DNA from: a virus | Length of the DNA stretch: 34,662 nucleotides | Virus record (IMG/VR): IMGVR_UViG_3300043436_003157 | Location: 1 to 34,662 of that record | Reading direction: 5' to 3' (one strand) | Shown: positions 4,482 through 34,624 of the stretch, in pieces | Numbering within the stretch: the first letter of the stretch is position 1 | Layout of the letters: every line of letters begins with the position of its first letter | The notes under the pieces: model-generated | What the model was told of the DNA's origin: nothing | What the model saw: the letters and a program-made list of their open reading frames with translations, nothing else | The model's database searches: none | Program-made: the position numbers and the translations under genes

Positions 4482-6326
4482 TCATTGATAAGTTGGAACA
4501 CCCGCACCTTTTGTATCTTTTCCAAGAGTTGCAACATATTGTTTAAATCCTTCACTATTGAATATTTGAGTTAATTGTTGTTGTGTTAACCCATTAGCTC
4601 CAACAGGACCATCTATAGTTATTTTAATATTACCCGTTACGTTGTTTGTAACATTAGTTGTTTTTGGTTGAGTTGTTTCAATTTGTTTTGATGCCATTTT
4701 AGATTGTAAAGTTTCACCTAAAACATTTGACTCACTTAGAGGTTTTACTTGAGCCTTTTGTTTAACCGCCTCAACCGAAGACTTTAACGGTGAACCAAGT
4801 GCTTCCAAAGTTTCATTTGCAAATGCCCTAAATTCTTTTTCAATTCCACTACTTCCTTTAATATTTTTAGCACTGGCCTCTAAAATACCTTTAAGAGCTT
4901 TCGTTCCACTTTCACCCAATGAATTTGCTCCACTAATAACACTATTTTCTAATTGTTCAATTTTTTTAGTAAAATCGGCGTCAGAAATTTTACCAGCGTC
5001 TTTTGCGGTAAATAAATCTCTCATTTTATCTATCGCTCCCGTAACATTTTCAGTAATTTTAGCACTCTCAGGAATTGCCTTATAAACGTCTTTTGATAAT
5101 TCTCTTAAAATTCTGTCAGCTCCATAAATGTTTTCACGAACTACAGGTGTTGCCGCAACACCATAAGCAACTTTAGCTGCAATCGCTTTAACATTTGCTG
5201 CCATATCTTGTGCAACAGTCAATTGACTTGATTGAATGTCTTCAAGAGTTTTTGGTCGATTTTCTTCTCTTTCTTTTAGAGCGTCAAATTGTTCTTGAGT
5301 TAACTCACTTAGTTTCTTTTGTTCTATAATACCTGTTTGGTCATTTTTAAGTTGAACCACATATTGTCCATCTTTCATTGTTGCCATATTTGCCAACAAT
5401 TGTTTGTCTTCTTCTTTGTCAAACTGTATTTCAGGACTTATATTAGATATTCTTTTATCTAAATCTGCGGCGGCTAAAGCAGCTTTACTTAAAGACCCCG
5501 CAGACATACCAGCTTCTTGTTCAATTTCTCTCAACATTAAGACCCCTTGAGGATTTATCTTAAATGTTTGTGTTTTTTCATCAAACTCTGTAAATTGTTT
5601 TGACGCTTTAATAATACTATCTTGTAATCCCGATGGGTCTGTTAATGATTGATTCATTAATGCAAACGGGTCAGTTAAGTTTCCAATAGATACACCTAAC
5701 CTTTGTAATCCAGCAGCGGTTTCAATAGCCCCTTCAGGTGTTAAAACTTTTTCCGCAAAATTAAATGTTTCTTGCATGTCCAATCTTAACATTGATGCTT
5801 GTGCCGCCATTTTTGCTAAACCTGCAACACCACCTTCAAACTGATAACGGTTCATTTTGGACATGTTAGCATTAACATCCCCCATAACCGTTTTAGAGTT
5901 CAATCCAACACTTTGAATATAATCAATAGAACTTTCTAAGTTTGTACCTATTTGAGAAGCCTCAATACCTACGGTAGCAAAATTTTCAACCAATGTTTCC
6001 GATTCTATACCTAATATTTTACTAGCGGCATATAATTTTGAAACTTGTTCTTCCGTTGCAATTACATTTCTTCTTGACCCCTCAGCAATACCCTCCATCG
6101 TGGCGGCAGCCGATGCTGCATCACCACCTAAACGAATTACTCCAGCGGCAGACCTAGAAATGGCGTCTCCCAACTCATCCATTCGGGTTCTACCCATTAC
6201 AAATGTTTGGTTCAGTCTTTCAGATAAATCAAACATGGTGTCCATAGCCTTGGCAGCTTCCTCAAGAGGTGATGCAAGACTTTCAACACTTTTCTTTAAC
6301 TTATCGATTTCTTCTTTTGACGGCAT
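4482..6326 (-). CDS. Tail tape-measure protein (putative)
   Basis: The 614-residue protein is mostly predicted helix. The first 100 residues are heptad-like and Ala/Ser-rich, as in tape-measure proteins. A mid region (about 170-280) carries the Ala-rich segments common in this class, and the last 80 residues are Thr/Gln/Asn-rich with a short beta-like end. Position supports the call: the gene follows tube and chaperone-like genes and precedes the hub-like gene, the canonical order. Length is close to T4 gp29 (about 590 residues). At roughly 1.5 angstrom per residue it would specify a tail of about 90 nm (inference). No lytic domain or clear membrane segment is visible. Start is the ATG at 6326 with a TATTTAT element 18 nt upstream. 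A different coiled-coil baseplate protein is the main alternative. Confidence 0.7.
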   Translation of the reverse strand: MPSKEEIDKLKKSVESLASPLEEAAKAMDTMFDLSERLNQTFVMGRTRMDELGDAISRSAAGVIRLGGDAASAAATMEGIAEGSRRNVIATEEQVSKLYAASKILGIESETLVENFATVGIEASQIGTNLESSIDYIQSVGLNSKTVMGDVNANMSKMNRYQFEGGVAGLAKMAAQASMLRLDMQETFNFAEKVLTPEGAIETAAGLQRLGVSIGNLTDPFALMNQSLTDPSGLQDSIIKASKQFTEFDEKTQTFKINPQGVLMLREIEQEAGMSAGSLSKAALAAADLDKRISNISPEIQFDKEEDKQLLANMATMKDGQYVVQLKNDQTGIIEQKKLSELTQEQFDALKEREENRPKTLEDIQSSQLTVAQDMAANVKAIAAKVAYGVAATPVVRENIYGADRILRELSKDVYKAIPESAKITENVTGAIDKMRDLFTAKDAGKISDADFTKKIEQLENSVISGANSLGESGTKALKGILEASAKNIKGSSGIEKEFRAFANETLEALGSPLKSSVEAVKQKAQVKPLSESNVLGETLQSKMASKQIETTQPKTTNVTNNVTGNIKITIDGPVGANGLTQQQLTQIFNSEGFKQYVATLGKDTKGAGVPTYQ

Positions 6327-6353: not shown

Positions 6354-6380
6354 AGAAGGACTAATTTTTTTAGTCCTTCT
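6354..6380 (-). terminator. Hairpin between chaperone-like gene and tape measure
   Basis: A perfect 10-bp stem (6354-6363 with 6371-6380) closes a 7-base A/T loop. In the minus-strand transcript it overlaps the stop codon of the 59-codon gene and is followed by a mixed TCTATTTATAT tract, not a clean U run. It may be a weak terminator or an mRNA-stabilising structure. Confidence 0.45.
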
Positions 6381-6549
6381 GATTATCTTCTATCCATTTA
6401 TTGAGTAAATATTTCCTAACAAATATCGGCATCCTCTCAAAATCTTGATAAGAAACTTTTAACAATGTTGTTAGATAATAAAATTCGTCGATTTGACTCT
6501 TCCTATACTCAGAAGAAAGGGCGAAAAAAGTCGACCCCAAAACCAACAT
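6370..6549 (-). CDS. Short second reading frame of the tail-chaperone-like gene (59 codons)
   Basis: This short frame (ATG at 6549, TAA at 6370-6372) overlaps the last 41 bases of the 247-codon gene in the +1 frame. Its C-terminal 50 residues look like genuine protein (FYYLTTLLKVSYQDF, then RMPIFVRKYLL), with regular amphipathic helix. It sits between tube/chaperone-like genes and the tape measure, exactly where the second frame of gpG/gpGT-type tail assembly chaperones is found. It may be translated from its own ATG by coupling, or as a C-terminal extension of the upstream protein by +1 frameshifting at GAC TTT TTT CGC (6532-6521). The frameshift product would be about 293 residues. Real coding is likely; the expression mode is unresolved. 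Confidence 0.65.
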   Translation of the reverse strand: MLVLGSTFFALSSEYRKSQIDEFYYLTTLLKVSYQDFERMPIFVRKYLLNKWIEDNQKD

Positions 6550-7252
6550 TCACTGTTAGTTTTTCTCCTGACGGGGCCATAATAGTTTTGTTCATGTCTA
6601 ATCTTGGTTCATTTTCATTCATAAAATTTCTAATGAATTTAGAATCCGCAATTGGCATTGACTCAATAAATTTAGCAATCTGAGATTTGTCTCTTGAACC
6701 ATCAACCTCTAAAATTTCTCTCTCCATTCTCCACGTAACCCTTGGAACAACTCTACCTTGTGGGTATGTTGACGCTAATCGATTGATGTCTTGAATTTCA
6801 CCATAAGTTAATGGTTTAATTTTAATTGTTGATTGTGATTTTGGTAACATGATTGTAAAGGTACCATCTTCACCTGGTTTTTGATTTCCAACAATTGACA
6901 ATTCATCCAACACAACTGTAGTTTGGAATTGTTTTTTAGTTGTTGGGTCAGTAACATTTAAAGTTATTTCAGGACCAAAAGCAGTATTTCTTAAAAAGAT
7001 AAGAATTGCTTCAACATCACCTTCAACTAATTCTTCAACTTTAATATCTGGCTCATATATTTTGGCTCTCAATAAAGTCATTGTTAAGTCATTAGACCCT
7101 CCCATAAGAATGTTCTCATCGGAAGCAGTAAGATAACCAACTTTAATCGCTTTCTTTTTATTTTTGTAAAATACTCCTTGTGAAGGTAGTTGAACCACGT
7201 CGTGTGGTAGTGTAAAATTTTCTTGACCGTAGTCTCTTGCTTGATTTTCCAT
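6509..7252 (-). CDS. T4 gp26-like baseplate-hub / tail-assembly-chaperone-like protein
   Basis: The 247-residue protein opens with LPSQGVFY and a YLTASDENIL segment, followed by a VEELVEGDVEAILIFLR block. This is the pattern I associate with the T4 gp26-like family of baseplate-hub assembly proteins. It ends in VDFFRPFF. Its place between tube and tape measure is that of the tail assembly chaperone in most long-tailed phages, so a chaperone role for the tape measure is plausible (inference). Start is the ATG at 7252, only 2 nt from the U-tract of a strong terminator, so much of its expression may come from read-through. A near-match TATTTAC lies 62 nt upstream (7315-7321), beyond the hairpin. 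The gene's 3' end overlaps a second frame that may be joined to it by frameshifting. Confidence 0.65.
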   Translation of the reverse strand: MENQARDYGQENFTLPHDVVQLPSQGVFYKNKKKAIKVGYLTASDENILMGGSNDLTMTLLRAKIYEPDIKVEELVEGDVEAILIFLRNTAFGPEITLNVTDPTTKKQFQTTVVLDELSIVGNQKPGEDGTFTIMLPKSQSTIKIKPLTYGEIQDINRLASTYPQGRVVPRVTWRMEREILEVDGSRDKSQIAKFIESMPIADSKFIRNFMNENEPRLDMNKTIMAPSGEKLTVNVGFGVDFFRPFF

Positions 7253-7324: not shown

Positions 7325-7813
7325 TTAGTATACTAACACACATCTATCCATTCTTAAAGAAGCTGTGATATCAGCCAACGCATCTTGACTATAAGATAAC
7401 GAACCAAAGTTTACATCAGTTAAGAAAGTTCCATAGAGAATCCATTTCTCAACAACAACTCCTGTAGGGTCTAACATTTCAAGGTCGATATCTTTTTTGT
7501 AACCTGCAGCATAACCCATACGACCTGTCACCGATTCAGCGTGTAAACGAACCCACTCCATAAGAGCTTGAGCTGCTGATGGTCCAATAGGGTCACGGAA
7601 CTTAACACTAATTGGGTCCCAGTTAAATCTACCTGCTACGAATGTAGATGTATTTAAAAATTGTATTTCAGTTGCACCAATCTTGATAGACGGTCTTGAA
7701 GCGCTTTCAACAAACCATTCGTTGATACCTAAACTTGACGGAAACCTTAAAATGAAACGGTTCTGGCGTTTCGGTTCGTAAGGTATCGGCATTTTCATTA
7801 ATAAATCAGCCAT
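7325..7813 (-). CDS. Tail tube protein (T4 gp19-like)
   Basis: At 162 residues it matches T4 gp19 (163) in length. The N-terminus reads FILRFPSSLGINEWFVES, followed by a RPSIKIG segment and a central WDPISVKFRDP, all typical of the gp19-like fold. The C-terminal half includes WILYGTFLTDVNFGSLSY and ends in MDRCVLVY. The product polymerises into the inner tube around the tape measure. Start is the ATG at 7813. The leader is unusually A-rich in sense (two long A runs in 7814-7845), as expected for very high expression where no Shine-Dalgarno is used (inference). A TATTTAT element lies 44 nt upstream and a strong terminator follows, so the gene looks like a monocistronic high-output unit. Confidence 0.9.
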   Translation of the reverse strand: MADLLMKMPIPYEPKRQNRFILRFPSSLGINEWFVESASRPSIKIGATEIQFLNTSTFVAGRFNWDPISVKFRDPIGPSAAQALMEWVRLHAESVTGRMGYAAGYKKDIDLEMLDPTGVVVEKWILYGTFLTDVNFGSLSYSQDALADITASLRMDRCVLVY

Positions 7814-16104: not shown

Positions 16105-17634
16105 ATGAAAAAAACAGAAGAGAAAATCCAACAACTAGAGTTACAGATACTTGAAAATCACGTAACAAAAGAAAAAGAGTTGTTGATTACAGAAATGAAA
16201 AAAATCGGAATAGAGAAACTACCTTATTCCTACTCAGCCCTCAAACAGTTTATTGACCCTGAAACCATGAGTTTTCACTACAATAAACATTACAAAGGGT
16301 ATGTTGATAAACTAAACGACGCATTATCAAAAAAGAAATACGGAGATTTAGATTTAGAAAAAATAATCAAAACAATCGGTCGTTTCGATAAAACAATTAG
16401 AAACAACGCAGGTGGGGCATTTAACCACGCATTGTTTTGGAATATGTTAACTCCCGAACCAAAGAAACTTACAGGCGAACTTTACAAAAAGATTACCAAA
16501 CAGTGGGGGACATTTACAAACTTCAAAAAAGAATTTGAAAAAATTGCCAAAGAAAGATTTGGTTCAGGTTGGGTATGGTTAGTCTTAACCTCCAAAAATA
16601 CATTGAAGATTATGTCAACTCCAAACCAAGACAATCCATTAATGAATGTGATTGAAGGTGGTGGTTTTCCATTGTTGGGGTTAGATTTGTGGGAACATGC
16701 TTATTATTTGAAGTATAGAAACAAAAGAGATGAATATATCGTAAACTTTTGGAAAGTTGTCAATTGGGATTTTGTAACTAAAATGTATGAGATGAAAGTT
16801 GAAACCAAGTTAGTTGAGTCTACCAAAATGAAACAAATCTTAAGTGAAGGTAAATCTGAAATGTGTTCTAAATCAGATAACGAATTTTATCGAATGTTAT
16901 TCAATGTAAACCAAGATATTAAATGGACTTACATGAATGGTATTAATAGAATTCTTAAAGAAGTCTTTAATGATGATTATATCGACAAACCAAGTAATAA
17001 CGAATTACCTGGCGTATATAATATTGAGGGACCTGGTAGGTCTGTATTAAATAAATTAAATACAAATTATACCGCATTTTGTATCCTATTAAAAGATTTA
17101 AATCAAGTAATCTCAACAATCGCAAACAAAAAACCTATTAGTTTTATGGACAAAACTCCCGCAGAACAAAAGAAAGAAGTTGAGAGATTTGTGAGAGCGT
17201 TAGACCATTTCAAATACCGAATTTTTGATAAAGAAAGTTCTACGTTACACAATCTATTGAGAACATTGACGGATAAAAATAAAGCGGGTGATAAAAGAGA
17301 ACAAATTACAGCATCAATCCTTAAAAGATATTTTGGTCAAAGTGCTAAAGTTGAAATTGTTGGTGAATTAGGAAACAAAAAAGATGCAATACAAGGTGTC
17401 GATTTGGAGATATTTAAAGATGGTAAATTACACACCGCACAAGTTAAACCATTTAGAGAAATGATTGTCACTGATGATGGTATAACTTTGGAAGGTACCG
17501 CAAGTGTAAAATTATATAAAACTGATTGGATGGTATTCCAAAGGGGGAAAAACGTTTTGGTGTTTGATAAGAAACCAAAAATTGTTGATGGTAACTTTGT
17601 TTTCCCCCCTAACTCACTTTTATATAACATATAA
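16105..17634 (+). CDS. Manganese-type superoxide dismutase fused to a nuclease-like C-terminal domain
   Basis: Residues 37-232 are a complete Fe/Mn superoxide dismutase, converting superoxide to peroxide and oxygen. Metal ligands H58 (SFHYNKHY), H108 (GGAFNHALFW), D194 and H198 (DLWEHAYYL) are all present. GSGWVWLVL and the KVVNWD ending also match. Q175 in STPNQDNP is the second-shell Gln of the Mn type, and G103-G104 replace the Fe-type Gln. A charged helical tail of 36 residues precedes it. Residues 233-509 are separate: a linker (LVESTKMKQILSEG), a helical middle, then residues 395-450 with REQITASILKRYFG, GVDLEI (D433) and AQVK (Q446, K448). That layout suggests a PD-(D/E)xK-type nuclease fold (inference). 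No frameshift separates the halves. The gene lies between the helicase and the gp13-like gene. Confidence 0.88.
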   Translation: MKKTEEKIQQLELQILENHVTKEKELLITEMKKIGIEKLPYSYSALKQFIDPETMSFHYNKHYKGYVDKLNDALSKKKYGDLDLEKIIKTIGRFDKTIRNNAGGAFNHALFWNMLTPEPKKLTGELYKKITKQWGTFTNFKKEFEKIAKERFGSGWVWLVLTSKNTLKIMSTPNQDNPLMNVIEGGGFPLLGLDLWEHAYYLKYRNKRDEYIVNFWKVVNWDFVTKMYEMKVETKLVESTKMKQILSEGKSEMCSKSDNEFYRMLFNVNQDIKWTYMNGINRILKEVFNDDYIDKPSNNELPGVYNIEGPGRSVLNKLNTNYTAFCILLKDLNQVISTIANKKPISFMDKTPAEQKKEVERFVRALDHFKYRIFDKESSTLHNLLRTLTDKNKAGDKREQITASILKRYFGQSAKVEIVGELGNKKDAIQGVDLEIFKDGKLHTAQVKPFREMIVTDDGITLEGTASVKLYKTDWMVFQRGKNVLVFDKKPKIVDGNFVFPPNSLLYNI

Positions 17635-26924: not shown

Positions 26925-28100
26925 TTAGATACAAGCTGTTGGGTCGACACCCGTAACTTCACCCGCTCCTCCTGATACAAGGAATGCAGCAGTTCCGTTA
27001 GAGTAGTAACCGTTAGCAACAGGTATTGTTAACGCAGTATTAAAGTATAAGAATTCACCTGCATTTGGACCAGGTCCTCCAGCAACTGTACCGTAAATTG
27101 TGTTAGGTGCTGAAATAAAGTCGGTACATGCATCATTAGCTGTTCCTCCAGTACCTAAACTATAAGTGTAGTAACCAAATGTTGCAGTTGGTGTTGTTGT
27201 TGGGGTTGCCGTTGGTGTTTCAGTTGTAGTAACTGTTGTAGTATTTGTTGGTGTTTGAGTATTTGTTGGGGTTGCCGTTGGTGTTTCAGTATTTGTTGGT
27301 GTTGGTGTTAAAGTTTGACATAATGAGCCAAGTCCAACCGTATTACCGTTCGAATCAAGTTCAACAACATAATTACCATTTTTATAGAAACCTGTCATAT
27401 CAACAGTAGGTCCTGCAGTTGCAACATTCCAAAATTCGGAACATAAATCAAACTGTGGATTATTACCGTAAATCGTTGAAGTACTATTGTATTGACCACA
27501 AGCATCATCTTGTGTCGCTCCGTAATAGACTGTAAATGAAACTCTAGCGATAGTAGGTGTAGGTGTATTAGTTGGTGTACCAGTGTTAGTAGGTGTTGGA
27601 GTTGCGTTAGGAGTACCTGTTTGAGTTTGAGTTGGAGTATTAGTTGGGGTTTCAGTATTAGTTGGTGTTACGGTTACATTAGGGGTTCCTGTTTGAGTTT
27701 GAGTTGGTGTGTTAGTAGGAGTTTCAGTATTTGTTGGTGTAGGTGTTGATGTTGGAGTTTCAGTGTTAGTCGGTGTTGGAGTGTTAGATGAAGTATTTGT
27801 TGGTGTTTGTGTATTAGTTGCAGTAACACTTGGTGTTGGTGTATTAGTTGGAGTAGTCGATGGTGTCATTGTAGGTGTTGGTGATGGGTAAACAGGTGGA
27901 AATACACCGTTATTAACCAATACTACACTACTCTGAAATAAAGGTGCAATTGAATACGTATTATTAATTAACCAAATATTTTTAGTTTGGTTTGGATTTA
28001 ATTCAACTTGGTACTCCCAAAGTGAATCGTCACATCTTCTATAATTAAAGTTTATTATAGTTGAACCCGTGTTCGTCAAAGTATATTTACTACATGCCAT
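26925..28100 (-). CDS. Pro/Thr-repeat modular fibre-like protein (391 aa)
   Basis: The domain order is clear. Residues 1-70 are a small beta domain (MACSKYTLTNTG, CDDSLWEYQVEL, NQTKNIWLI). Residues 73-184 are an almost pure Pro/Thr/Asn/Glu/Gln linker built on [12 protein letters not shown]. Residues 185-260 are a beta module with Cys near both ends, and 260-306 a second Pro/Thr linker. Residues 307-391 are a more divergent copy of the module. No signal peptide or membrane segment is seen, as expected for a virion component. The Thr-dense linkers resemble mucin stalks and could carry O-glycans. The N-terminal domain is duplicated as the 70-residue neighbour. A terminator follows, then the glycosyltransferase operon. 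A tail-fibre or adhesin role is inferred from architecture. Confidence 0.8.
   Translation of the reverse strand: MACSKYTLTNTGSTIINFNYRRCDDSLWEYQVELNPNQTKNIWLINNTYSIAPLFQSSVVLVNNGVFPPVYPSPTPTMTPSTTPTNTPTPSVTATNTQTPTNTSSNTPTPTNTETPTSTPTPTNTETPTNTPTQTQTGTPNVTVTPTNTETPTNTPTQTQTGTPNATPTPTNTGTPTNTPTPTIARVSFTVYYGATQDDACGQYNSTSTIYGNNPQFDLCSEFWNVATAGPTVDMTGFYKNGNYVVELDSNGNTVGLGSLCQTLTPTPTNTETPTATPTNTQTPTNTTTVTTTETPTATPTTTPTATFGYYTYSLGTGGTANDACTDFISAPNTIYGTVAGGPGPNAGEFLYFNTALTIPVANGYYSNGTAAFLVSGGAGEVTGVDPTACI
27607..27750 (-). repeat. 72-bp tandem repeat in the 391-aa fibre gene
   Basis: Two adjacent 24-codon units (27607-27678 and 27679-27750) encode [20 protein letters not shown]-type linker with only a few base differences. 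Confidence 0.75.
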
Positions 28101-28120
28101 CGTTTTATTTTCTTTTAAAT

Positions 28121-28127
28121 ATAAATA
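28121..28127 (-). promoter_or_regulatory. TATTTAT element before the 391-aa fibre gene
   Basis: Sense TATTTAT 20 nt upstream of the ATG at 28100, in the 29-base gap after the 70-codon gene. Confidence 0.5.
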
Positions 28128-28129
28128 CT

Positions 28130-28342
28130 TTAGTTTGGTGGAAATACACCATCATTTATTAAAATAACATTAGGTACGAATAACGAAGCAATAGAATAAG
28201 AGTTATCAATCAACCAAATGTTTTTTGTCTGATTTGGTTCTAGTTCAACTTGATATTCCCACATTGTGTCGTCACATCTTCTATAGTTGAAATTCACTTG
28301 AGTTGTTCCAGTGTTTGTTAGTGTGTATTTGCTACAGGCCAT
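28130..28342 (-). CDS. Stand-alone copy of the fibre N-terminal domain (70 aa)
   Basis: All 70 residues align without gaps to the first 70 of the adjacent 391-residue fibre protein; by eye about 54 are identical. Both begin MACSKYTLTNTG, share NFNYRRCDD and PNQTKNIWLI, and end GVFPP. Here the frame stops after GVFPPN, just where the Pro/Thr linker begins in the larger gene. It is either a duplicated fibre that lost its shaft or a deliberate short subunit, for example one that fills attachment sites without a long arm. Its leader (28343-28375) is A-rich in sense, with no TATTTAT element, so it may depend on the upstream transcript. Confidence 0.75.
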   Translation of the reverse strand: MACSKYTLTNTGTTQVNFNYRRCDDTMWEYQVELEPNQTKNIWLIDNSYSIASLFVPNVILINDGVFPPN

Positions 28343-28375
28343 TTTATTTTGTGTTTAATTTTTTTATTTCTGTTA

Positions 28376-29875
28376 TTAGCATAATACACCAAATCCAATA
28401 GTAAAACCATTTAAATCAAGTTGAACTACATAACCATTATTTTGATAGTAACCTGACATATTAATTGTTGAACTACCGTTAGGTACATTCCAAAATTGAG
28501 TTGATAAATCAAATTGTGGGTCATCACCATAAATTGTTGTTGATGGGTTTACTTGATTACAAGCGTCTAATTGAACACTACCTGGGTAAACGGTAAATGA
28601 AATTCTACTATGAGTTGGGGTAGGTGTTGGGGTTAATCCAACAGTTACACTTGGCGTTACAGTTACAGTATTTGTTGGAGTACTTGTTGGTGTTTGAGTG
28701 TTAGTAATGGTTGGTGTATTAGTTGGAGTTTCACTTGGAGTTTCTGTATTGGTCGGTGTATTAGTTGGAGTTTCCGTATTAGTCGGTGTATTAGTTGGAG
28801 TTTCCGTATTGGTCGGTGTATTAGTTGGAGTTTCAGTTGGAGTTTCAGTGTTTGTTGGTGTTGGTGTTTGAGTTTCAGTGTTTGTAGGTGTGTTAGTTGG
28901 CGTTTCCGTATTTGTTGGTGTTTGAGTCGGTGTTTCAGTTGGTGTCGGTGTATTACTTGATGTAACCGATGGTGTTGTCGTTTGAGTTGAAGTATTTGTT
29001 GGAGTTGCGGTTGGAGTTGGTAAAGGACATCCACCTAAATAAGTTGCAAAACCATCACCATCAACAATAATAACACTTTGAGCACAATAGGTTAGAGTGT
29101 CAAAAACTTCTAAGAAGAAATCGTAAGGGAATCCGTCACAATCAATACCCGCAAACGTTGTTTGATTTGTTGTTCCACCAAATAATAAATAAGTTTTACA
29201 TAGTGAGTTAGTTGGTGTTTGAGTGTTAGTTGGTGTGTTAGTTGGGGTTTCTGTATTAGTTGGTGTTTGAGTAGGTGTCGATGTTGAAGTTTCAGTATTC
29301 GTAGGGGTATTAGTAGGTGTTTCAGTATTAGTAGGGGTATTAGTTGGAGTTTCAGTATTAGTAGGGGTATTAGTTGGTGTTTCGGTGTTAGTAGGTGTAA
29401 TACTTGGAGTAACTGTCGGTGTTGGTGTATTACTTGCAGTTGCGGTTGGAGTTAATCCAATGGTAACGGAAGGTGTTGGTGTTAAAGTACTAGTTGGTGT
29501 TACGGTTGGTGTTTGAGTATTTGTAGGTGTTTGAGTGTTAGTTTGTGTTTGAGTCGGTGTTGCGGTTTGACTACTAGTTGGGGTTGGTGACAACCCAAAT
29601 GTACTAGTTGGTGTTGGAGTTATTGTTGGCGTTGTTGTTTGTGTTACTGTTGGTGTAGGTGTTACTGTTGGTGTTGGTGCTGGTACATTTAATGAATATG
29701 TGTAACCATATGTTGGAACATAACAATCATATATACCGTAATAATAACTTGATATATAGTTAAATGGAAAAACTTGAGTACCTAAATTAATTGTACCTCC
29801 TGTATCGGGAAAATACGTAACATTTGTGGTTTGACCACTCAAATTATCACTTAAAATTCTTACACCTAACGCCAT
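28376..29875 (-). CDS. Pro/Thr-repeat modular fibre-like protein (499 aa)
   Basis: Residues 1-65 are a unique beta domain starting MALGVRILSDNLSG. Residues 66-220 are a Pro/Thr/Asn/Glu linker. Residues 222-282 form a globular module with four Cys (LCKTYLLF, IDCDGFPYDFF, TYCAQ, LGGCP). Residues 283-420 are a second linker, and 421-499 a copy of the shared beta module (ISFTVYPG, ACNQ, TIYGDDPQFDL, GYYQNNGYVVQLD, ending GVLC). About 60% of the protein is linker, with Thr at nearly every second position. No secretion signal is seen. The ATG at 29875 is 4 nt from a TATTTAT element. It is probably a fibre or virion-surface adhesin with an extended, possibly glycosylated stalk (inference). Confidence 0.8.
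   Translation of the reverse strand: MALGVRILSDNLSGQTTNVTYFPDTGGTINLGTQVFPFNYISSYYYGIYDCYVPTYGYTYSLNVPAPTPTVTPTPTVTQTTTPTITPTPTSTFGLSPTPTSSQTATPTQTQTNTQTPTNTQTPTVTPTSTLTPTPSVTIGLTPTATASNTPTPTVTPSITPTNTETPTNTPTNTETPTNTPTNTETPTNTPTNTETSTSTPTQTPTNTETPTNTPTNTQTPTNSLCKTYLLFGGTTNQTTFAGIDCDGFPYDFFLEVFDTLTYCAQSVIIVDGDGFATYLGGCPLPTPTATPTNTSTQTTTPSVTSSNTPTPTETPTQTPTNTETPTNTPTNTETQTPTPTNTETPTETPTNTPTNTETPTNTPTNTETPTNTPTNTETPSETPTNTPTITNTQTPTSTPTNTVTVTPSVTVGLTPTPTPTHSRISFTVYPGSVQLDACNQVNPSTTIYGDDPQFDLSTQFWNVPNGSSTINMSGYYQNNGYVVQLDLNGFTIGFGVLC
28741..28830 (-). repeat. 30-bp tandem repeats in the 499-aa fibre gene, distal linker
   Basis: Three consecutive 30-base units (28741-28770, 28771-28800, 28801-28830) differ at only two positions and encode a 10-residue TPTNTPTNTE unit. 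Confidence 0.8.
29291..29380 (-). repeat. 30-bp tandem repeats in the 499-aa fibre gene, proximal linker
   Basis: Three 30-base units (29291-29320, 29321-29350, 29351-29380) encode the same TPTNTPTNTE-type decapeptide but use a different base pattern from the distal array. The two arrays therefore expanded separately. Confidence 0.8.
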
Positions 29876-29879
29876 GTCA

Positions 29880-29886
29880 ATAAATA
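29880..29886 (-). promoter_or_regulatory. TATTTAT element before the 499-aa fibre gene
   Basis: Sense TATTTAT with only TGAC between it and the ATG at 29875. Confidence 0.5.
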
Positions 29887-29921
29887 CCTATTTGTTTTGT
29901 TTTATACCTTTTAAAAAAAAT

Positions 29922-30491
29922 TTAACCACAGATTCCTTTATTAATAATTAAAGTCCCACCAATTTGAATAAATGTTGAGCCATTTGAAATCGTAAAATTG
30001 GCGTTAATCGGCGGAATAGTTAACTGACTATTACCATAAACATGGTCACCAATCTCTAATTGACTGAATGGTTTTTCGGAATAAATAGTAACGTTAGCAG
30101 GATTACCAAAATACGTTGAACCGCAAACATCTTGATAATAACCACCAGTTCTTAAATTGGCCATATAAACAATAACAGGTGTTACCGTTGGTGTTGGAGT
30201 TTGAGTTGGAGTTACGGATGTTTGAGTTGGAGTTGGAGTTACGGATGTTTGAGTTGGAGTTGGTGTCACAGTTGGTGTTGGAGTTGTTGAAGGACATAAT
30301 CCCATATTAACAACATCTAAAGGTGCTGCATAATTTTCAACATATAAATCTTTAGCGCAGACATAACTTGTTTGTAATGGTTCTACGGGACTAACACTAA
30401 TAATGTCAGTACAACCTGTCCATCTATAATATCCTGTTTGGACATTATTATAATTTGTTATTCTATAGTAATTACAGTCTGTGGTGTACAT
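29922..30491 (-). CDS. Pro/Thr-repeat modular fibre-like protein (189 aa)
   Basis: This is the smallest multi-domain member of the fibre set. Residues 1-70 are a Tyr/Cys-rich beta domain (MYTTDCNYYRITNYNN, YYRWTGCTD, CAKDLYVENY). Residues 71-107 are a short Pro/Thr/Gln linker with a 9-residue TQTSVTPTP repeat. Residues 108-189 are a divergent copy of the shared beta module, again with Cys near its start (DVCGSTYFG) and at the end (KGICG). The start lies 2 nt after the stop of the 1,376-residue gene, so translation is probably coupled. It may be a short fibre or a clip between long fibre and baseplate (inference). Confidence 0.78.
   Translation of the reverse strand: MYTTDCNYYRITNYNNVQTGYYRWTGCTDIISVSPVEPLQTSYVCAKDLYVENYAAPLDVVNMGLCPSTTPTPTVTPTPTQTSVTPTPTQTSVTPTQTPTPTVTPVIVYMANLRTGGYYQDVCGSTYFGNPANVTIYSEKPFSQLEIGDHVYGNSQLTIPPINANFTISNGSTFIQIGGTLIINKGICG
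30211..30264 (-). repeat. 27-bp tandem repeat in the 189-aa fibre gene
   Basis: Two adjacent 27-base units (30211-30237, 30238-30264) encode QTSVTPTPT-type nonapeptides. Confidence 0.7.
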
Positions 30492-30493
30492 TT

Positions 30494-33400
30494 TTATAAT
30501 CCATATTTTGATTTGTCAGCATTATAGTTTTGTAAAACTTGGGTAGAGGTAAGTGATGAGTTGTATAAACGAGTTATACCAATTTTTCCATCAAACCATT
30601 GAGAAAACTCACCACCATTGTAACTGCCAATGTAAAGTGGGTTAGACGTGTTTAGTATACTTGCCAAACTATGGCTCACACTTCCTATACTTACACCATT
30701 TACAAATGTTTCAAGTGTATTAGACGCAATGTTAGTAAACACATAAACTATCTGATACCAAGTACCAATCGTCCCAACGTAGTTTGTACTATTAACAAAC
30801 AATGATGAACCACTACCACTACCTGAACCTAATTGAGCGTAGTATGTGGTATTAGTTGTTCTGATACTATAACTTACATCTATAGTTAACCCTCCATTAT
30901 CAAATTTTCCAAGTACAACATCATTACCTAAAACCGATTGATTAACCCACACTTCCATAGTCCAATCTCCACTTCCTGGTTCTAATAATGGATTATCGGC
31001 AACTCGAACTTGTGATGAAGTTCCATTATATGAAAAATATGGTGATGTATATGTAATACCCGACATTGAACCATTTAATCCATTTCCTGATAAATCATTA
31101 ATTGTTGTACCAGTACCAGGGTAACTTGATAAATTACTTGGGTCATAATATAAAACAAGATTAGTGGTTACGGGAACTGCAGGTGTTGAGGTTGGAGTTG
31201 GACTTGAAGTTGTTGTGTTAGTTGGCGTAGAGGTATTAGTATTTGTTGGTGTTACTGTTGGCGTACTTGTTGTTGTAGGAGTTGATGTTGGTTCCACAAA
31301 TCTTGGAGCCAAGTAATTGTATTGTTGTGTTATTTCAGCAAGGTTTAATTGTCTGTTATAGAAATACATGTTGGCAACATGTCCCCAAGGTTGAGCAACA
31401 ATATCATTATTACCCCATCCCCAATGTGTTGTTCCACCAGCACCCTCATTAATTGTGCTTCCCACCTGTGAACCATTTATGTAGAATGTTTGAGATGTGT
31501 TTGTTCCAACTACCGCAAACTGAACCCAAACGCCAGCTGAAGATGCTACATCATATCCTGAGCTTACAAATCCTGTTGCCCAATATCCTAATGTACTTGT
31601 TCCATTAGGTATTGTAATTGGTGTGATTTTAGGAGGACCCTTTGTATAAAGTACTGTTCTAAATCCAGCATTACTAGGTATCAATCTTGCCCAAGTGATA
31701 TATGTGTATCCCGAATTTGGTAATAAAGGTCCTGTTAAGTTGTAATCAACTCTATTATTTCCTGTTGTACAATCAAAACATTTTACACCATTAAGAACTG
31801 TGTAAGTTGCACCAATTAATGTATGGTCATACCCACCTGTAATATCAAAAACAGTTGTTCCTGTTCCAGGGTAACTTGAGCTTTCATATGCGTCAAGTTG
31901 AATAACCAAACCTGAAGTTACAATACTTGGTGTTGAGGATGGTGTATTGGTTGGAGTATTAGTGTTTGTTGGTGTTGGAGTAATGATTTGTGTTTCAGTT
32001 GGTGTTAATGTATTAGTTGGTGTTGAGGTTTCGGTTGGTGTATTAGTAGGAGTCTCAGTTGGTGTTGGTGTGTTAGTTGGTGTTGGTGTCTCAGTTGGAG
32101 TGTTAGTTGGTGTGACTGACGGAACAACACTACAAGAACTAAATCCGCCCATCTCAAAACCATTTGAGTCTAATTCAACAACTAACCCACTATAACTATA
32201 ATATCCTGACATATCACCAATAACGGTTCCATTTGGATTATTATAGAATTGTGTATTAGTATCAAAAGATAAATTTTCGGCATATATTACTCCAATAACA
32301 CCACTATCACAAGCAATATTTGCGGTTGAACCTGAAGTTATATTAAAAACATCTAAGGCATTTGTTGGGGTTGGTGTTTGTGTTTGGGTTGGTGTTTGTG
32401 TTGGAGTTTCGGTTGTAGTTGGTGTAGGAGTTTCGGTTGTTGTTGGTGTGTTTGTTGGCGTTTCTGTATTTGTCGGAGTTTGAGTTACCGTTGGTGTGTT
32501 TGTTGGCGTTTCTGTATTTGTCGGAGTTTGAGTTACCGTTGGTGTGTTTGTATTTGTCGGAGTTTGAGTTACCGTTGGTGTGTTTGTTGGCGTTTCTGTA
32601 TTTGTCGGAGTTTGAGTTACCGTTGGTGTAGGGGTTAATGTTGAGGTAGGTGTTGGTGTTGGTGTAGATTGAATTAGTTCATAATACAAATCATTTGCAG
32701 GTATACTAATATATGATAAATCATTATCAGGTATTGTTATGTAATACAAATCGTTTGACGGTATTACAATTCTACAATTAAGACAATCAGGATTTAATAA
32801 ATTATATGTGTCTTTTAGTATTTTAAAATTATGTTTAATTTGAGCGGCATTTAGTGGTTCGGTGTACATTCTAAACGCACTGATATCTCCAATCATACTA
32901 CCACCAAACAATTCTTCTAACCTAATTTGGGTTGTTAAACCTGAATAAATTGTATTGTCTAAATCATAAGTCGTTAAACACTCAGGGTCTTGTTGATATT
33001 GAAGTCCACTTAAATCAACTGGACATCCACCTGAGAATGTTAAGTTATCGTGAAGACCTTGGGTACCACCACCAATTGAAATGTTATATCCAACACCAAT
33101 TTGCTTTTCTTTTGGAGTATTCAATAATCTTGGAATGATTTCTTCAAAGTTTTCAACAACCATGAATAACTTTCCATTCACATAAAACTTAAGTGTTCCT
33201 AATCTATATTTTTGTTCTTCGGTCCACATATCTGTGAATGTCACAACTTCAGTTGAAGGTGGGTCATAAGGAGTTTCCCTTGTAATAGGAGGTTCAATTA
33301 AACTAACACTTCTACCTTCAATTGTTGCAAAATATACGTCTTTAACAAGCAGACCTAATCCACCTTTATCATATAGGTCACAAGTATCTAACCATTCATA

Positions 33401-34624
33401 TCTTTGGAATACGGTATCAATTTGAACCCAATGTTCTACATTTGGATAAGTTGTACCCGAACAATCATCAAAGATACCTCTTGTTGAACACCATTCAGTT
33501 ACCGAAGTACCTGTAACATAAGTTATACCTGTCAAACAAGTTCCAGTGCTTTCACATCCACCAGTTATTCTATATGTCTTAACACATAATCTTGGACTAC
33601 CCGTATCACCACTTAATCTTAATGATAATGCATTTGAAACTTCATCATACAGTGGGTCTTTTTCAGGGTATTGTGCCGTAGTTGTACAATCACACGCACA
33701 TCCACAAGTGCAATTTGTAATGGTACCACCTGATGGTTGGTATACTTGAAGACATTCTGAAGATGTGTTTGCACTACTTGCACAACCACAAGTGTGCATA
33801 CAAGTTAAACCTGATGTAACCCTTGTATATCCCGAATCTTGTTTTGGACTACCGTCGGCATAATGATAAAATTTGTTTTCAGCTCTTGCTCCCATATAAA
33901 AGAATGTTCCTTTATTATTAGGGTACCTTGCATTTAGACCAACTGAAGTATCACCAGTCCATCTATATTTTAACATGAATTCAGTTGTCCAACCTAAACT
34001 AACTCTTTCAGGGAATACTTGGTAATCATAACCCGCAATCTTATAAAATCCTTGATAAAACCCACCTTGTAGGTTTGCAACATATCCAATATCTCCACCA
34101 ACATTTGTGTACGACAAATCATAAGTGTATGAGTTATCATTCCATAATCTATTTTGAGTTGTAGTAAAACCTGTAATAGGGTGAAGTTTCATCCTCCTAT
34201 CATACTTGTATCTACTAAACTTATCTGTAATATTTGTGTATAACCCTGTGGTTATTTCTATAGTTTCTCCCGACATGTTTTGAACAAGTCCGTTGTCAAT
34301 TCCTGTTAAACCAATATCACATAATTGAGTGACGATTGGACAAAAATTTGGGTCAGTATCCGTTGGGTTCCAATAATTTTCCGATACAATAGTATCCGCA
34401 CTAAAAACACAAGGCGAAACTTGGCATAATGTGGTACCACTACTATTAAAATCAAATTTAAATGGCATTCTATTACCATCGTCTTCACCAATTAATAATG
34501 GTGAAAAAATAACTTCTTGGTCGTAATCTTTTTCATCTGAAGCAAGACATAAGTCGGTCACTTCATTGACAGGTTTTAGACCAAATCTTCTAAAATTATA
34601 TTGATTAATATTTTGATATGCCAT
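30494..34624 (-). CDS. Giant fibre/adhesin with Cys cluster, Pro/Thr linkers and LamG-like domains (1,376 aa)
   Basis: Residues 1-650 are a unique N-terminal part that may attach to the virion. It contains nine Cys within about 40 residues (near 275-320) and a segment resembling the end of a LamG fold ([17 protein letters not shown]). It ends with three IPxNDLxYI-type repeats. Residues 653-754 are a Pro/Thr linker with 16-residue repeats, 755-833 the shared beta module and 834-900 another linker. Residues 900-1111 are a LamG/concanavalin-like domain ([22 protein letters not shown]), 1112-1151 a linker, and 1152-1376 a second LamG-like domain ([25 protein letters not shown]). LamG-like folds usually bind glycans, so the C-terminal end is the likely receptor-binding tip (inference). 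The ATG at 34624 lies 9 nt from a TATTTAT element. Confidence 0.85.
32455..32630 (-). repeat. 48-bp near-perfect tandem repeats in the giant fibre gene
   Basis: Two full identical units (32455-32502, 32503-32550), a unit shortened by 12 bases (32551-32586) and a further copy (from 32587) encode a 16-residue Thr/Pro/Val/Gln/Asn/Glu pattern. The in-frame 12-base loss points to recent slippage or recombination. Confidence 0.85.

Follow-up and report, generated by a model that had tools for sequence, protein, structure and literature searches.

Does the short +1 reading frame lying between a gp26-like gene and a tape-measure-like gene of this T4-like phage encode a protein of its own, or is it translated as the C-terminal part of a longer form of the gp26-like protein? 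The question concerns one locus of the window, by which we mean the whole 34,662-nucleotide stretch of viral DNA analyzed here (IMG/VR record IMGVR_UViG_3300043436_003157), in which gene A and frame B overlap by 41 nt (Table 1). Both are placed between a tail tube gene and a tape-measure-like gene, as is the G/GT pair of lambda, and frame B ends just 5' of the latter gene, at 6370. This gene was named from its position and length, and no profile matched it; in the immuto phages and LIS04, the tape measure comes next after the homologous pair. The first-pass annotation had pointed to a 247-codon gene overlapping a short +1 frame just before the tape measure and had proposed a programmed +1 frameshift in this tail-assembly-chaperone position. 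The coordinates all check, as do the codons of the proposed site, GAC (6532-6530), TTT (6529-6527), TTT (6526-6524) and CGC (6523-6521), after which gene A ends with CCT TTC TTC TGA. The comparison of relatives described below strongly supports the proposal itself, through the site, the two frames, the homology of the tail and the relatives in which a start codon is missing: a forward slip of the ribosome by one base, close to the 3' end of gene A, is very probable and would give a longer second protein. When TTTC is read as one step, the predicted fusion has 293 aa, which matches the earlier estimate of about 293 residues. Its predicted junction peptide is LTVNVGFGVDFFALSSEYR, and that of the immuto phages ends IGVSFFGLTPEYR.

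Table 1. Features of the gp26-like locus and its neighbors in the window.
Feature	Coordinates	Strand	Remarks
Tail tube gene	7813..7325	-	Upstream of A; phrog_4542, E 4e-25
Gene A	6509..7252	-	gp26-like short form, tail assembly chaperone TAC-N; 247 aa/247 codons; stop TGA 6511-6509
Conserved RNA stem-loop 5' of slip site	6534..6577	-	Helices 6577-6572/6539-6534 and 6559-6554/6548-6543
Frame B (+1)	6549..6370	-	59 codons counted from its own ATG
+1-frame ATG 5' of slip site	6547..6549	-	Alternative start; present in 53/53 close relatives
Slip site TTT TTT, then C	6524..6529	-	Second TTT (6526-6524) the likely P-site codon, which would re-pair on TTC (6525-6523)
Putative slow A-site codon CGC	6521..6523	-	Relatives: CGC, CGT or CTC
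+1-frame C-terminal domain TAC-C	6370..6522	-	50 codons and stop; joined to A by the proposed shift
Tape-measure-like gene	4482..6326	-	Directly downstream; 614 aa

The loci of relatives were taken from viral contigs retrieved with peptides that exclude the C-terminus of A and were completed by named phages found by protein similarity, giving 268 loci, of which 132 are distinct over 210 bases around the A stop. The conserved tail lies in the +1 frame in 129 of these 132 distinct loci, and in each of the 129, one of the last 14 codons of A is a TTT with C or T as the next base (TTT-Y). The +1 frame is absent from three distinct relatives, all of them devoid of TTT-Y. In L260 (TTC TTG TAT) and L266 (TTC CTT TGG), frame B has become an independent ORF, its ATG lying 2-5 bases past the A stop, and in LR756511 (L086, a 595-kb phage) the tail lies in the -1 frame behind a canonical heptamer, T TTT TTC. 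The loss of the slip site together with the splitting off of B in L260 and L266 raises the question of whether covalent fusion is always needed.

Within the clade of the window, the slip sequence is TTT TTT C(GC/GT/TC). Loss of the T6-C run in relatives keeping both frames had been named beforehand as the observation that would speak against a shift; both frames are kept and the run is invariant in the 53 distinct close relatives, whereas most codons for the other invariant Phe residues of A are variable. Indeed, Phe 242 and Phe 243 are encoded by TTT in every one of the 53 sequences. No close relative lacks either frame or the site, so that chance does not account for this arrangement. Among the 117 codons of A with an invariant degenerate amino acid, 17 are single-codon in all 53 sequences, and 10 of these 17 fall within the last 19 codons; this conservation reflects partly dual coding and partly the stem-loop at 6577-6534. 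The T run owes some of its conservation to the protein, since the FF pair is itself conserved at the amino acid level (LKEFFELL at the end of T4 gp26).

More distant +1 phages allow the site to be narrowed down. The immuto (Flavobacterium) group has TTT CTT/CTA or TTT TTT TGG, the L251 group TTC TTT TGG, SP-15 TTT TTT CAC, LIS04 GAG TTT TTT AGT, GXN1 TTC TTT CGT, RM378 and Mel-JY01 TTT TTT TGG, and LR756508 AAC TTT CTA. Because TTT alone can re-pair one base forward when it stands next to CTA or TTC, the slip codon is TTT-Y. TTT is retained at the site although the other Phe codons of A are mostly TTC (TTT:TTC of 0:5 in GXN1 and 2:10 in SP-15/LIS04). The main genes of the window comprise 10,420 codons, and TTT TTT C is found in frame at this place only. 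In the window, TTT codons are seldom followed by C (17 of 340), vs 13% of all codons starting with C. CGC, which had been called infrequent, is used for 3 of 374 Arg codons, and CTC for 12 of 771 Leu codons.

The ATG at 6549 opens another route to B, namely a separate protein made by translational coupling to gene A, an alternative that the first-pass annotation had kept. This ATG is in frame throughout the close clade, several -1 phages have an ATG overlapping the A stop or shortly after it, and in L260 and L266 B is a separate ORF that starts from an ATG of its own. Against this, 27 of the 129 +1 relatives lack any start codon (ATG, GTG or TTG) in the interval from the last +1-frame stop to the slip site, and in these a shift is needed for B to be translated. 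Three of the 27 (L080, L092 and L132) are close relatives of the window in which a TAG parts the conserved ATG from B. Furthermore, the +1-frame residues of the window clade vary freely before the slip site, stops included, and are conserved after it, where changes affect mainly the third position; thus, the conservation of B starts at the slip site and not at the ATG. Past the A stop, 25, 11 and 40 of 45 sites are variable at the first, second and third codon positions, and the dN/dS of B is 0.08 (53 sequences), indicative of purifying selection on a tail that evolves as protein. The ATG is also located inside the stem-loop, with the nearest AGGAG 15 nt off, and TTT-Y is gone from the relatives in which B does start separately. 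The invariant ATG makes some B-only product possible in the close clade, but coupling cannot make B in the 27 relatives. This ATG is probably not the main route to B, and we consider a purely separate B protein improbable.

The frame of B could also be reached by a -2 slip, in which tRNA-Phe would move from the second TTT back onto the TTT two bases earlier and one extra Phe would be incorporated. Such slips are known among tail assembly chaperones from phage Mu, and the T6 run of the window permits perfect re-pairing two bases back; the predicted junction would then read DFFFALSS instead of the DFFALSS expected from a +1 shift. In relatives with AAC TTT CTA, ACC TTT CTT or TTC TTT TGG, a -2 slip cannot re-pair, but a +1 slip (TTT to TTC or TTT) can, and a single mechanism for the whole family fits as +1 only, which leaves the -2 slip with a slim probability. 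RNA polymerase slippage on the T run, which would give a mixed mRNA population, could draw on a run of T6 in the window and on T7 runs among the relatives, in some of which they occur, but many relatives of the same architecture have only T3 runs, and T6 is itself short for such slippage; we regard this reading as very nearly negligible.

Other candidates were rejected as well. A canonical -1 shift does not fit since a stop ends the -1 frame of the window clade 20-38 nt past the A stop and no X XXY YYZ heptamer is found, and at GAC TTT TTT the P-site codon offers no -1 re-pairing. Shine-Dalgarno stimulation of the prfB type was discarded since the upstream GGGG is paired in the stem, no Shine-Dalgarno sequence adjoins the site and the A site holds CGC, CGT or CTC and not a stop. 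Lastly, a sequencing error or a pseudogene is at odds with the agreement of 53 distinct close relatives and with the low dN/dS. As judged from the sequence comparison, it is highly probable that this locus codes for the short and the long form (TAC-N and TAC-NC) of a gp26-type tail assembly chaperone, the long form arising by a programmed +1 shift.

The RNA around the site was examined for structures that might assist this shift. In 49 distinct sequences, 99.1% of the cells of the stem-loop at 6577-6534 are paired, vs 30-52% when it is slid, and its z value is -2.7 in the window. It ends 4 nt 5' of the first TTT and covers the ATG at 6549. Changes among these 49 sequences are one-sided only, with no two-sided covariation, and the stem-loop was not found in the more distant +1 phages in which it was looked for. 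It is a possible frameshift stimulator. On the 3' side of the site, hardly any structure was obtained by consensus folding (-1.3 kcal/mol). An invariant GGAGA/AGGAG-like purine stretch (6569-6565, minus strand) lies in the loop of the 5' stem-loop and precedes the +1 ATG by about 15 nt, too far for a usual start. Farther downstream, a perfect 11-bp inverted repeat, AGAAGGACTAA/TTAGTCCTTCT, spans 6380-6354 on the minus strand; it overlaps the B stop between B and the tape-measure gene and resembles a terminator or a processing hairpin.

At the protein level, gene A matches the PF12322 profile (E 1.6e-7, 31.7 bits for a cut-off of 24.5) and phrog_150 (baseplate hub, E 5e-13). Alone, A aligns to column 233 of phrog_150, and the fusions extend farther, over columns 12-258 for the window and to column 273 for LR756508; T4 gp26 covers columns 14-235 and T4 gp51 columns 13-280. 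When the profile of the +1 tails was compared by HHalign with that of the gp51 and -1 tails, a probability of 93, an E value of 3e-7 and a score of 36.3 were obtained, against scores of at most 12.3 in 30 column shuffles. Frame B is, on this profile evidence, homologous to the C-terminal extension of T4 gp51. For the immuto, SP-15, RM378 and LR756511 fusions, the phrog_150 alignment was not clearly extended, and the homology of these tails comes from the profile comparison or the layout alone. T4 has two PF12322 genes, one short and one long, and six phages whose tail is in a shifted frame (SP-15, LIS04, RM378, GXN1, LR756508 and LR756511) have one each; Mel-JY01 and immuto fall under the Pfam threshold, yet match phrog_150. 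In Campylobacter phage CP81 (L286, L291 and L292), phrog_150 matches three adjoining places, perhaps duplicated gp26/gp51-like genes.

An AlphaFold model of A alone has a pLDDT of 84 and is ordered to about residue 235, so that the shift point would lie directly past the folded domain. The PDB chains that this model matches with a Z score of at least 5 are tail assembly chaperones only (YqbN, 3klu, 5.7; HK97, 2ob9, 5.0), with modest values below 8, the next match being at 2.5; Foldseek gave no significant PDB match for the model.

From these data, we infer the following sequence of events. Most ribosomes would complete gene A and release the 247-aa TAC-N. A minority would pause before the rare CGC of GAC-TTT-TTT-CGC, with tRNA-Phe paired to the second TTT; the tRNA would then re-pair one base forward, from TTT to TTC (6525-6523), and translation would go on in the frame of B. 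UUU-pyrimidine slip sites, including UUU CGN, were reportedly described by Schwartz and Curran in 1997. By analogy with lambda gpG/gpGT, the common N-terminal part may coat the tape measure protein and the rare C-terminal part may recruit tail tube subunits. Synthesis of the fusion in this phage, its efficiency, the forward single-base step, the help of the 5' stem-loop and the role in assembly are all parts of this proposed model. A broader scheme, in which one family makes two forms by four routes (+1, -1, duplication in T4 and a split gene) and in which the stem-loop, by re-forming behind the ribosome, drives the forward step in this clade, is advanced only tentatively and may well prove wrong.

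To our knowledge, forward (+1) sites in phages are few and poorly defined. The present family provides a large and clean natural set that follows a simple rule, TTT plus a pyrimidine, then usually a slow codon in the window clade. As it also offers natural mutants that have lost the site and a homologous group with the -1 arrangement, the direction in which a single family of proteins shifts frame can be put to the test. In several sequenced phages, the annotation of the long chaperone form is fragmentary or missing: for L084, L085, L087 and L088, public annotations cut the tail short (SP15_046, immuto35A_232 and Rm378p030) or omit it (LIS04). Elsewhere in the window, the gene at 16105-17634 on the plus strand encodes, in a phage, a fusion of Fe/Mn superoxide dismutase domains (PF00081/PF02777, at residues 36-226) with about 280 more residues that have no Pfam match. 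The region 26925-34624 on the minus strand encodes several virion-like proteins with long Thr/Pro tandem repeats, and some of these repeat genes have low-complexity open frames on the opposite strand.

The identity of gp26-like proteins as tail assembly chaperones is not new. Vladimirov, Gautam and Davidson (2022, Virology 566:9) are said to have named genes 26 and 51 as a short/long chaperone pair, and this agrees with the two T4 family members, short and long, found here by sequence. The earlier remark that the gp26-like family is not normally described this way has to be revised, since T4-like tail assembly chaperone genes are named in Vladimirov 2022, as far as that work is relayed by PMC10885494 and PMC12846349. 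As cited there, the short form and a long fusion are encoded by two genes, in place of frameshifting, in some T4-like phages (PMC10885494), and polyT -1 signals occur in TAC-N genes of T4-like phages (PMC12846349). The reports on T4-type phages, as relayed in these citations, thus describe a backward slip or two separate genes, vs a very probable forward slip here. Elsewhere, gp26 and gp51 are listed as hub assembly chaperones (PMC3004832), and G-T frameshifting is described as conserved in long-tailed phages "except T4" (PMC5009743). No text linking gp26 itself to frameshifting was found in the literature searched; this search, which did not cover the text of Vladimirov 2022, likewise yielded no mention of the +1 variant, of its breadth or of the TTT-Y rule.

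The closest known systems include the -1 chaperones. In other T4-like phages, the tail is in the -1 frame and is preceded by T TTT TT(N). For S-PM2, HTVC008M, Cr30 and phiM12, this frame yields matches to the C-terminal columns of phrog_150 after runs of T, and PhiW-14 and Atu_ph07 look the same by inspection. These, and the GTTTTT chaperones of Vandenendeviridae (PMC12846349), share with the window phage a T run at the end of TAC-N and an overlapping TAC-C before the tape measure, but their tail is in the -1 frame and most of those inspected have an ATG near the A stop. Lambda gpG/gpGT is similar in layout and in the presumed control of the ratio of the two forms, but its shift is -1 and its sequence unrelated. 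Forward shifts in phage tail genes are represented by the chaperone of the haloarchaeal myovirus HSTV-2, "very likely" +1, and by Listeria phage PSA, which differs in slipping on CCC in capsid and tail-shaft genes (PMC5009743). E. coli prfB, where UUU is among the forward-slippery codons (PMC10885494), has in common a P-site slip and a slow A site, but relies on an adjoining Shine-Dalgarno sequence and on a stop codon in the A site. Finally, T4 gp26 and gp51 belong to the same families (PF12322 and phrog_150), with the same N-terminal part and, in gp51, an extension homologous to the C-terminal part studied here; T4 keeps its short and long forms on two genes, whereas the window phage would obtain both from one gene through the proposed +1 shift.
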